A program made the translations under genes and the position numbers. From assembly GCF_016765795.1 (NCBI RefSeq), contig NZ_JAESVP010000004.1:186001-250000 (forward strand): DNA of 64,000 nt. The letters are read 5' to 3'. The notes under the pieces were generated by a model, which searched no databases, was not told the origin of the DNA, and saw only the letters and a program-made list of their open reading frames with translations. Origin of the DNA: Fuscibacter oryzae. Lineage in GTDB: Bacteria > Pseudomonadota > Alphaproteobacteria > Rhodobacterales > Rhodobacteraceae. Shown here one piece after another: positions 9,808 through 11,180 of this stretch; within the stretch, counting starts at the first letter, position 1, and each line of letters starts with the position of its first letter.

Positions 9808-11013
9808 TCAACCAACCACGTTGGTTTCGGGGCCATAGGGATATTTGGTGATATCCTCGTTGCCATCTTCGGTGATGAACAAGATGTCATGTTCGCGGTA
9901 GCCCCCCGCGCCCGGCTGCCCCTCTGGGATGGTCAGCATCGGCTCCATCGAAATGACCATGCCCGGTTCCAGCACCGTGTCGATATCCTCGCGCAGTTCC
10001 AGCCCGGCCTCGCGGCCATAGTAATGGCTGAGAACACCGAACGAATGGCCATAACCAAAGGTCCGGTATTGCAGCAACTGCCGCTCTTCGAGGAAGTCGT
10101 TGATCTTGGCCGTCACCTCGGCGCAGGACACGCCGGGTTTCAAAAGGCTCATCCCGTATTCATGGGCGGCGACGTTCGCCTCCCATATCCGCAGGCTGGC
10201 CGGATCAACCTCTTTCACGAACATCGTGCGTTCAAGGGCGGTGTAATAGCCACTGATCATCGGGAAGGTGTTCAGCGACAGGATATCCCCGCGCTTCAGC
10301 AGGCGGCTGGTTACCGGGTTATGCGCGCCGTCGGTATTGATGCCCGACTGGAACCAGACCCAGGTGTCGCGGTATTCGGCATCGGGAAAGCGTTTCGCAA
10401 TCTCCAATTCCATCGCGTCGCGGCCTGCCATGGCAATGTCGATCTCGCGCAGGCCTTCCTTCACCGCCTCGCGGATGGCATAGCCGCCCACGTCGGCCAC
10501 ACCGGCGCCATGGCGGATCAGGTCCAGTTCGGCCTGCGATTTGCGCATCCGCTGTTCCATCGTGGCGGGCGCAATGTCCATGCCGCGCTTGGGCTGAAGG
10601 AAGTGGTTCAGCTTTTCCGATTGCAGCAGTGTCAGGTGATCGGCCTCACAGCCGACATGTTTGCCGGTGCCGACAACCGAGGCAATCGCGCGCCAGTAAT
10701 TGTCGCGCTGCCAGTCGGTATAGGTGATGTTGTCGCCATGGCTGCGCCGCCACGGCTGGGCGGCATCAATCCCGGCGCTGATCGTGACCGACTGGTCCTT
10801 GGTGACCACCAGCCCATAGGGCCGCCCGAACGAGCAGTAGAGGAACCCCGAGTAATAGGCGATGTTCTGCATTGAGGTCAGGACAACCGCGTCCAACCCG
10901 TGCAGATCCATCACATCGCGCAAACCCTCGATGCGGTCTTCGTATTCTTCGGCAGAAAAGGGCAGCACCCGGTCGCCTTGGTGAAAGCGATATTGTTGTG
11001 GACGTTCCGTCAT
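9808..11013 (-). CDS. Creatinase (creatine amidinohydrolase)
   Basis: Creatinase hydrolyses creatine to sarcosine and urea. The 401-residue product matches my memory of Pseudomonas putida creatinase closely: shared segments include LYCSFGRPY, YTDWQRDNY, FQSGINTDGAHNPVT, YRTFGYGHSFG and GAGGYREHDIL. The catalytic His (232 in P. putida) is His231 here, with Glu261 and Glu357 at the matching places. The Asp pair that binds metal in true M24 peptidases is absent, as expected for this metal-free branch. I chose the ATG at 11013, which has GAGGT upstream; a longer frame would run through the structured leader. No urease or sarcosine oxidase gene adjoins it. A close paralogue acting on another guanidino compound is the main alternative. 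Confidence 0.92.
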   Translation of the reverse strand: MTERPQQYRFHQGDRVLPFSAEEYEDRIEGLRDVMDLHGLDAVVLTSMQNIAYYSGFLYCSFGRPYGLVVTKDQSVTISAGIDAAQPWRRSHGDNITYTDWQRDNYWRAIASVVGTGKHVGCEADHLTLLQSEKLNHFLQPKRGMDIAPATMEQRMRKSQAELDLIRHGAGVADVGGYAIREAVKEGLREIDIAMAGRDAMELEIAKRFPDAEYRDTWVWFQSGINTDGAHNPVTSRLLKRGDILSLNTFPMISGYYTALERTMFVKEVDPASLRIWEANVAAHEYGMSLLKPGVSCAEVTAKINDFLEERQLLQYRTFGYGHSFGVLSHYYGREAGLELREDIDTVLEPGMVISMEPMLTIPEGQPGAGGYREHDILFITEDGNEDITKYPYGPETNVVG

Positions 11014-11144
11014 ATCAGACCTCACTTGATGGGGCCTGCCTGTTGTGGCGCGAGACCCCGAAAGGTCCCGGCGTACAGGACTTGGGCAGGTTTCCCTGCA
11101 AGCGGCGGGGCAGTACCCCTGTGGCGACGCCATCGCCACGGCTT
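11014..11144 (-). ncRNA. Candidate structured leader RNA (riboswitch-like) of the creatinase gene
   Basis: The 131-base leader from the predicted start to the creatinase ATG folds strongly. In order: GTGGCGA/TCGCCAC (7 bp); GGGG/CCCC around TACTG; CTTGCAGG-GAAA-CCTGCccAAG (GNRA loop, 8 bp with a bulge); and a GGGACC/GGTCTC stem with a TTTCGG loop. A competing long-range helix pairs GGGG-TA-CTGCC with GGCAG-G-CCCC just before the ribosome site, closing the last two hairpins into one domain. Mutually exclusive pairing next to the ribosome site is what a translational riboswitch would show. It does not match the glycine, guanidine, SAM or cobalamin consensus as I remember them. Ligand unknown. 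Confidence 0.5.
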
Positions 11145-11150
11145 GAGCGC

Positions 11151-11180
11151 ATGATAGCGCGGGCCGTGGCAAATAGGCAA
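11151..11180 (-). promoter_or_regulatory. Predicted sigma-70 promoter of the creatinase transcript
   Basis: On the minus strand TTGCCT (-35, bases 11180-11175) and TATCAT (-10, bases 11156-11151) are 18 bases apart. Transcription would start near 11144. The site follows the stop of the YghU-type gene by only a few bases, so creatinase has its own promoter and a long 5' leader. Confidence 0.55.

Follow-up and report, generated by a model that had tools for sequence, protein, structure and literature searches.

Background

Guanidine riboswitches are reported to control SMR exporter genes and degradation genes (PMC12186494). Guanidine-II, also known as mini-ykkC, has been described as two small hairpins that are proposed to kiss via their loops on binding guanidinium (PMC7544219), and a variant of guanidine-IV, the Gd4v motif, is thought to sense a ligand other than guanidine, with gene associations that differ (PMC9788692). 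In Rhodobacterales, the SAM/SAH riboswitch is described as lying directly upstream of metK, the gene for the enzyme that makes its ligand (PMC2864571). Genes for creatine utilization are reported to be controlled by AmtR in Corynebacterium (PMC8864220).

The RNA described here lies in the leader of a creatinase gene in the window, by which is meant the whole stretch of 64,000 nucleotides of the Fuscibacter oryzae genome that was analysed (contig NZ_JAESVP010000004.1, positions 186,001 to 250,000). It shares with guanidine-II, as that class is described, the two small hairpins and the proposed kissing of their loops. The loops of guanidine-II are two ACGR loops, whereas those of the creatinase RNA are GATGGCGTC and TGNACGCCG, and the partner genes of the creatinase RNA are those for creatinase, an AGAT-type amidinotransferase and an EamA transporter. 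The SAM/SAH riboswitch is similar in its occurrence in Rhodobacterales and in its reported position directly before one enzyme gene; it differs in the gene and in sequence, and the creatinase RNA differs from both of these classes in having no Rfam match. The likeness to the Gd4v motif is one of argument, in that sensing of something other than guanidine is in both cases argued from gene associations. The genes are not the same: the main text on the Gd4v motif names N-acetyltransferase genes, and creatin-, amidinotransferase and EamA are absent from it (PMC9788692). AmtR, and perhaps a regulator of the GlxA type, are protein regulators of creatine genes, unlike the RNA of the creatinase leader.

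Creatinase gene and promoter

All features of this locus lie on the minus strand. The leader is followed by a gene (9808-11013, with its ATG at 11013-11011) for a protein of 401 amino acids that is a full-length relative of solved creatine amidinohydrolases (PDB 1chm, E 1.4e-152 over residues 4-400; also 7yto and 1kp0), and the 1chm match bears out the name creatinase given to it in a preliminary description of this DNA. The substrate of creatinase is creatine. The nearest named relatives are from Rhodobacteraceae, and creatinase is frequent in this family, being found in at least 260 of 394 sampled genomes (E<=1e-100).

The preliminary description had also given the gene a sigma-70-like promoter of its own. 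Such a promoter is present (11151-11180), with a -35 element TTGCCT at 11180-11175 and a -10 element TATCAT at 11156-11151 that together match at 9 of 12 positions. The window's match alone is at chance level, with one found in 3701 bases against 1.3 expected. Its placement relative to the RNA is kept among relatives: in 67 of 96 that are non-redundant, the best sigma-70-like -10 element ends 12-19 nt 5′ of the RNA's first hairpin, compared with 10% in shuffles. The transcript is predicted to start close to 11145, where the RNA and its first base pairs begin.

Structure of the leader RNA

Folded as a single sequence, the leader (11014-11144) beats its shuffled versions by a modest margin (z -2.56), being matched by 2 of the 200, and with so moderate an excess it was for comparison across relatives to decide. 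Two alignments were used. One comprises 51 leaders, namely that of the window and 50 of 61 non-redundant cores; the other, of the window's subtype, comprises 31 of 35 leaders that had been preselected for spacing and TTTCGGGG, with the window as L001, and neither includes the creatinase loci L102 and L107. The invariance of conserved positions in these leaders is partly set by the search expressions that picked the cores.

The hairpin P1 (11121-11139) carries the conserved GATGGCGTC at 11134-11126. Across 155 non-redundant sites from five gene families, a set that includes 11 loci from a scan of the class, the pair beside this nonamer is C-G at 139 sites, T-A at 12, and T-G, G-C and G-T at one each, with a single site unpaired. 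The hairpin P4 (11065-11081) reads GTCC-TGTACGCCG-GGAC and contains the conserved CCTGNACGCC. Its T-A pair becomes C-G at 5 of the 155 sites, and its innermost C-G pair is exchanged for G-C in one genome (G125, locus L327), the leader of which was matched by covariance model. Several pair types, G-U wobbles included, occur in both P1 and P4 across this set. In the alignment of 51 leaders, both sides have changed in 53 cells of the P1, P4 and loop pairs, the shuffled data giving 18.2, and none of 500 shuffles was as high.

Long creatinase leaders contain three more helices. The hairpin P2 (11107-11119, GGGG/CCCC) is 96.0% paired, with two of its four pairs changed on both sides, and the hairpin P3 (11086-11099, GCAGG-GAAA-CCTGC) is 95.3% paired in the 31 aligned leaders, with three of five pairs so changed. 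P1 and P2 are enclosed by an outer helix, P0 (11099-11145), in which CAAGC at 11145-11141 pairs with GCTTG at 11103-11099, base 11099 being shared with P3. Over the 31 leaders of the window's subtype, the four inner pairs of P0 (11144-11141 with 11103-11100) are paired in 95.2% of cells and two of them have changed on both sides; in a blind stem search P0 stood slightly above shuffles only, and it is claimed for long creatinase leaders alone, as the aligned class in which it is supported. A kissing helix is proposed between GGCG at 11131-11128 in the P1 loop and CGCC at 11073-11070 in the P4 loop. These segments are complementary in all 51 and all 31 aligned leaders; since they do not vary and belonged to the motif by which leaders were chosen, the pairs stand outside the support from covariation.

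The structure of the window's subtype as a whole, six helices with the invariant kissing pairs included, is 97.4% paired in the 31 leaders, with 11 double-changed pairs against 5.4 in shuffled data. Covariation across homologous leaders, which had been set beforehand as the test, is clear in these pairs as in the 53 cells of the larger alignment. The four local hairpins of the preliminary description are present and conserved in the window's subtype as P1 to P4, to which P0 is to be added. Its long-range helix did not survive: the pairing of GGG..CCTGCC with GGCAGG..CCC, which does appear in the minimum-energy fold of the window's single sequence, is possible in 53.0% of cells among 31 relatives against 52.3% in shuffles, and was rejected, its CCTGCC/GGCAGG part alone giving 52.5% against 51.4%. 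On this comparative evidence, the leader is a conserved structured RNA of mRNA 5′ leaders.

Distribution upstream of creatinase genes

The two-part RNA was found upstream of 110 of 112 creatinase loci, for which up to 300 bases were read (101 distinct stretches), and its order is fixed in these 110: GATGGCGTC in a stem is followed, 30-77 bases on, by CCTGNACGCC in a second stem. One of the two exceptions (L102) is a contig that starts 78 bases upstream, and the other (L107) is a variant recognised by covariance model (32.8 bits, E 3e-6). In this latter creatinase leader (2920-2990), the first loop is rearranged to GATGGCGATATCGTC and the second loop is CCTGACCGCC. Variation is also possible at the TG of the second loop, as in the creatinase leader of genome G304 (L326), where GTCCCACACGCCGGGAC replaces GTCCTGNACGCCGGGAC.

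The model built from the 51 leaders has a single strong match (E 1.5e-16; the next is at 0.02) in the genome from which the window comes, and it matches at least 242 of 394 genomes of the family at E<=1e-4. Creatinase (E<=1e-100) is present in 229 of the 242 genomes listed and absent from 13. Among the matches listed, 31 of 260 creatinase genomes are without an RNA match at E<=1e-4, and four of these (G250, G304, G378 and G380) do carry the RNA. The exact two-part pattern occurs in at least 194 of 388 family genomes; the reversed pattern occurs once among the matches listed.

A scan of 385 genomes of the class gave, among its best 30 loci, 12 that lie directly before creatinase, members of five other families included; 11 of the 12 have E<=7e-5 and one (G501) has 1e-3. 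The remaining 18, with E from 7e-4 to 0.01, were set aside as chance matches, with no CCTGNACGCC within 80 nt of GATGGCGTC and, in seven, no GATGGCGTC at all. At newly fetched creatinase loci in a sample of the phylum, from which two creatinase matches of 55-56% identity (G938 and G026) were left out, both halves were present in 21 of 21 loci of at least 64% identity and in none of six of at most 59%. Between these identities, one creatinase (L304, 63%) has the RNA and that of Azoarcus (61%) is without it. Creatinases on plasmids also have the RNA, in Maritalea myrionectae (65.1 bits; L329, a leader of the short form), in Loktanella salsilacus (50.4) and, weakly, in Paroceanicella profunda (24.6). 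It is present, too, in Rhodobacter capsulatus (L088, L094), which is a species used in the laboratory.

Creatinases without the RNA include that of Azoarcus, with a GlxA-family gene beside it, and the six of at most 59% identity. The Azoarcus gene is on a plasmid of strain sp. KH32C (L332), between the genes for the GlxA-family regulator and creatininase. This layout suggests that creatinase genes lacking the RNA are controlled by a protein; a role for GlxA at the Azoarcus gene is a guess from its position.

A record titled Enemella evansiae (L103), the name of an actinobacterium, contains an 80% identical creatinase with an alphaproteobacterial leader, perhaps through contamination or mislabelling. 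The RNA is also kept before an apparent creatinase remnant (L254, genome G083) and before an apparently shortened creatinase frame (L255, genome G187).

Other genes preceded by the RNA

Extra sites were examined because of the 13 genomes that have the RNA and no creatinase and because of genomes with two matches. An amidinotransferase of 373-376 amino acids, the best solved relative of which is human L-arginine:glycine amidinotransferase (E 6.7e-85), stands behind the RNA in 11 genomes (loci L242, L239, L253 and eight others). In G202 and G076, the amidinotransferase and creatinase genes adjoin and each has its own RNA copy (L239, L253). An EamA/DMT transporter (Pfam EamA) stands behind the RNA in 21 genomes, two of the frames being short (L247 and L302); these loci include L248, L257 and L265, and the protein is possibly a transporter of guanidino compounds. 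A DMT transporter on a Paracoccus plasmid has the RNA as well (36.0 bits), and the RNA is absent from the Photobacterium amidinotransferase, a named plasmid example. A Rieske oxygenase resembling dicamba demethylase (G096, L243) and an SDR resembling 7-alpha-hydroxysteroid dehydrogenase (G185, L246) were each found behind the RNA once. Six pattern matches were judged to be chance (G221:C9, G116:C5, G358, G051, G204 and G213:C14), and two extra sites were left unassigned to a gene, one at a contig end (G362) and the other at the apparent creatinase remnant of G083.

Among the matches listed, creatinase at E<=1e-100 is lacking from 2 of the 11 amidinotransferase genomes and from 10 of the 21 EamA genomes, and the latter argue that the RNA is not merely an appendage of creatinase. 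Site counts do not measure the frequency of partner genes, since 99 of 132 creatinase sites had been fetched as creatinases. The RNA is shared by genes that are unlinked and belong to one metabolic theme, namely those for creatinase, the AGAT-type amidinotransferase and, putatively, the EamA transporter; the Rieske oxygenase and the SDR have no obvious fit to this theme or to a creatine switch.

The sites differ by gene in the base that follows CGCC. Creatinase sites have G here in 117 of 125 cases and amidinotransferase sites in all 11, and C is found in all 17 non-redundant EamA sites as well as in those of the Rieske oxygenase and the SDR. The remaining creatinase sites have C in seven cases and A in one, so the base does not track the gene strictly. 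A C in this position may mark a second ligand specificity.

Proposed pairing with the Shine-Dalgarno region

A competitor for the ribosome site was part of the preliminary description; the conserved one is a different segment from that drawn there. In the proposed OFF pairing (11017-11068), the 3′ strand of P4, GGACCTT at 11068-11062, is complementary to the Shine-Dalgarno region, GAGGTCT at 11023-11017. Across the 31 leaders, 99.5% of cells allow it to form, most of them invariant. The threshold for Shine-Dalgarno complementarity was reached by 54 of 68 long creatinase leaders (22-27% in shuffled segments) and by 23 of 46 short ones (21-32%). Amidinotransferase and EamA leaders have complementarity at about the level of chance, with no clear excess over shuffles, and masking of the Shine-Dalgarno was dropped for these leaders on that ground.

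In an energy model in which P1 and P4 were enforced, the Shine-Dalgarno opened in 25 and closed in 7 of 64 long creatinase leaders, the corresponding numbers being 21 and 2 of 43 for short creatinase leaders, 4 and 1 of 11 for amidinotransferase and 5 and 5 of 17 for EamA; these counts, like those for complementarity and the blind stem search, include one misread row (L311). The opening among creatinase leaders lends switching weak support from modelling. In the window's own leader, enforced P1 and P4 do not open the Shine-Dalgarno in this model (0.24, against 0.27 when free; 0.16 with all five stems).

We infer the ligand, the kissing contact and the direction of switching, and the mechanism might run as follows. 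P1 with GAUGGCGUC and P4 with CCUGNACGCC would probably dock via the GGCG:CGCC kissing helix and so create a ligand pocket. When no ligand is present, the 3′ strand of P4, GGAYCTT, would mask the ribosome site in creatinase mRNAs. P4 and the OFF pairing are mutually exclusive, so a ligand that stabilises the contact between P1 and P4 would free the ribosome site: with the ligand bound, P4 would keep its 3′ strand and translation would be on. The RNA would act as an ON switch that lets the enzyme be made in the presence of its substrate, a direction that fits the role of creatinase as a breakdown enzyme.

Ligand, class and alternative explanations

The Rfam search proposed in the preliminary description returned no family at the gathering threshold for the leader. 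Against Rfam 15, the sole match in the whole window is the serC leader RF00517 (50169-50220, minus strand, 68.1 bits), with none at the creatinase leader; the leader at a permissive E<=10 gave two chance-level matches only; and among ten loci, which covered leaders of creatinase, amidinotransferase, EamA, Rieske and SDR genes, the one match was a tRNA. The guanidine riboswitch families, models of which Rfam 15 presumably holds, had no match in the window, the leader or the ten loci. A search of the literature for riboswitches of creatine or creatinase, amidinotransferase or guanidinoacetate, many subscription journals and preprints being outside its scope, found no earlier report among the papers listed, and in the surveys of bacterial RNA motifs that were consulted the main text contains no word beginning with creatin. 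The proposal of a riboswitch-like leader of no Rfam class before creatinase is borne out by this absence of matches together with the covariation.

Its riboswitch anatomy and the lack of a match to Rfam classes make the leader a candidate for a new riboswitch class, a putative metabolite sensor. AGAT makes guanidinoacetate or, in reverse, consumes it, and the presence of the RNA before amidinotransferase and DMT transporter genes strengthens the case for a guanidino compound, with creatine as the most likely ligand and guanidinoacetate the next. The probable reading, in our judgement, is a new riboswitch-like RNA class of Alphaproteobacteria with kissing hairpins, creatine as its most likely ligand and ON control of creatinase translation. 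That creatine or its precursor guanidinoacetate here has its first natural riboswitch class, an alphaproteobacterial aptamer of kissing hairpins that controls creatine breakdown, AGAT and a DMT-type transporter and has a C variant that may mark a second ligand, seems to us slightly better than an even bet. A widespread RNA that is absent from Rfam would constitute a new orphan riboswitch class for which the ligand hypothesis is unusually clear. Should either creatine or guanidinoacetate prove to be its ligand, these bacteria would sense an animal energy metabolite directly by RNA, a function would be hinted at for the EamA transporter family and for bacterial AGAT, and the RNA would serve as a natural aptamer for a compound that is measured in the clinic.

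The strongest competitor, which we regard as possible and rather unlikely, is a riboswitch of the same anatomy for another ligand, be it guanidine, sarcosine, arginine or ornithine, 4-guanidinobutyrate or another guanidino compound; the sites with C after CGCC (EamA, Rieske, SDR and some creatinases) may then have a second specificity. The division of that base by gene, C in EamA, Rieske and SDR sites and mostly G in creatinase and amidinotransferase sites, would agree with such a ligand, as would a gabD-like gene that 9 of 80 loci contain in the neighbourhood of creatinase. Like EamA proteins, those of the SMR type are classed as DMT transporters. The combination of an exporter with a degrading enzyme also recalls the gene set reported for guanidine riboswitches, namely SMR exporters and degradation enzymes (PMC12186494). 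However, no Rfam family matches, and the base is not a strict marker, with 7 of 125 creatinase sites having C and one A. Creatine remains the favoured ligand in that 229 of the 242 RNA genomes, among the matches listed, have creatinase, the enzyme of which it is the substrate.

It is improbable that the leader is instead bound by a protein or a small RNA, with an RNA-binding regulator reading the two loops and controlling how a guanidino regulon is translated. Conserved loops that are short and variably spaced (30-77 nt), as the two here are, would suit a protein or a trans-acting RNA, but conserved loops that are complementary to each other, and a strand shared with the Shine-Dalgarno, are the usual anatomy of a riboswitch.

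A DNA operator downstream of the promoter, in which the near-palindrome GGCGATGGCGTCGCC is a transcription-factor site, is very unlikely. Although P1 is nearly palindromic and near the promoter, and the RNA-less Azoarcus creatinase adjoins a gene for a GlxA-family regulator, the G-U wobble pairs in P1 and P4 speak for RNA, P0, P2 and P3 covary too, the site is 3′ of the -10 element and inside the transcript in 67 of 96 relatives, and 110 of 112 upstream regions hold the second half behind the first, in the direction of the gene and at variable distance. Chance folding of a G+C-rich leader, to which the single-sequence z of only -2.56 might be ascribed, merits almost no credence and is refuted by covariation and by conservation over genera and families.
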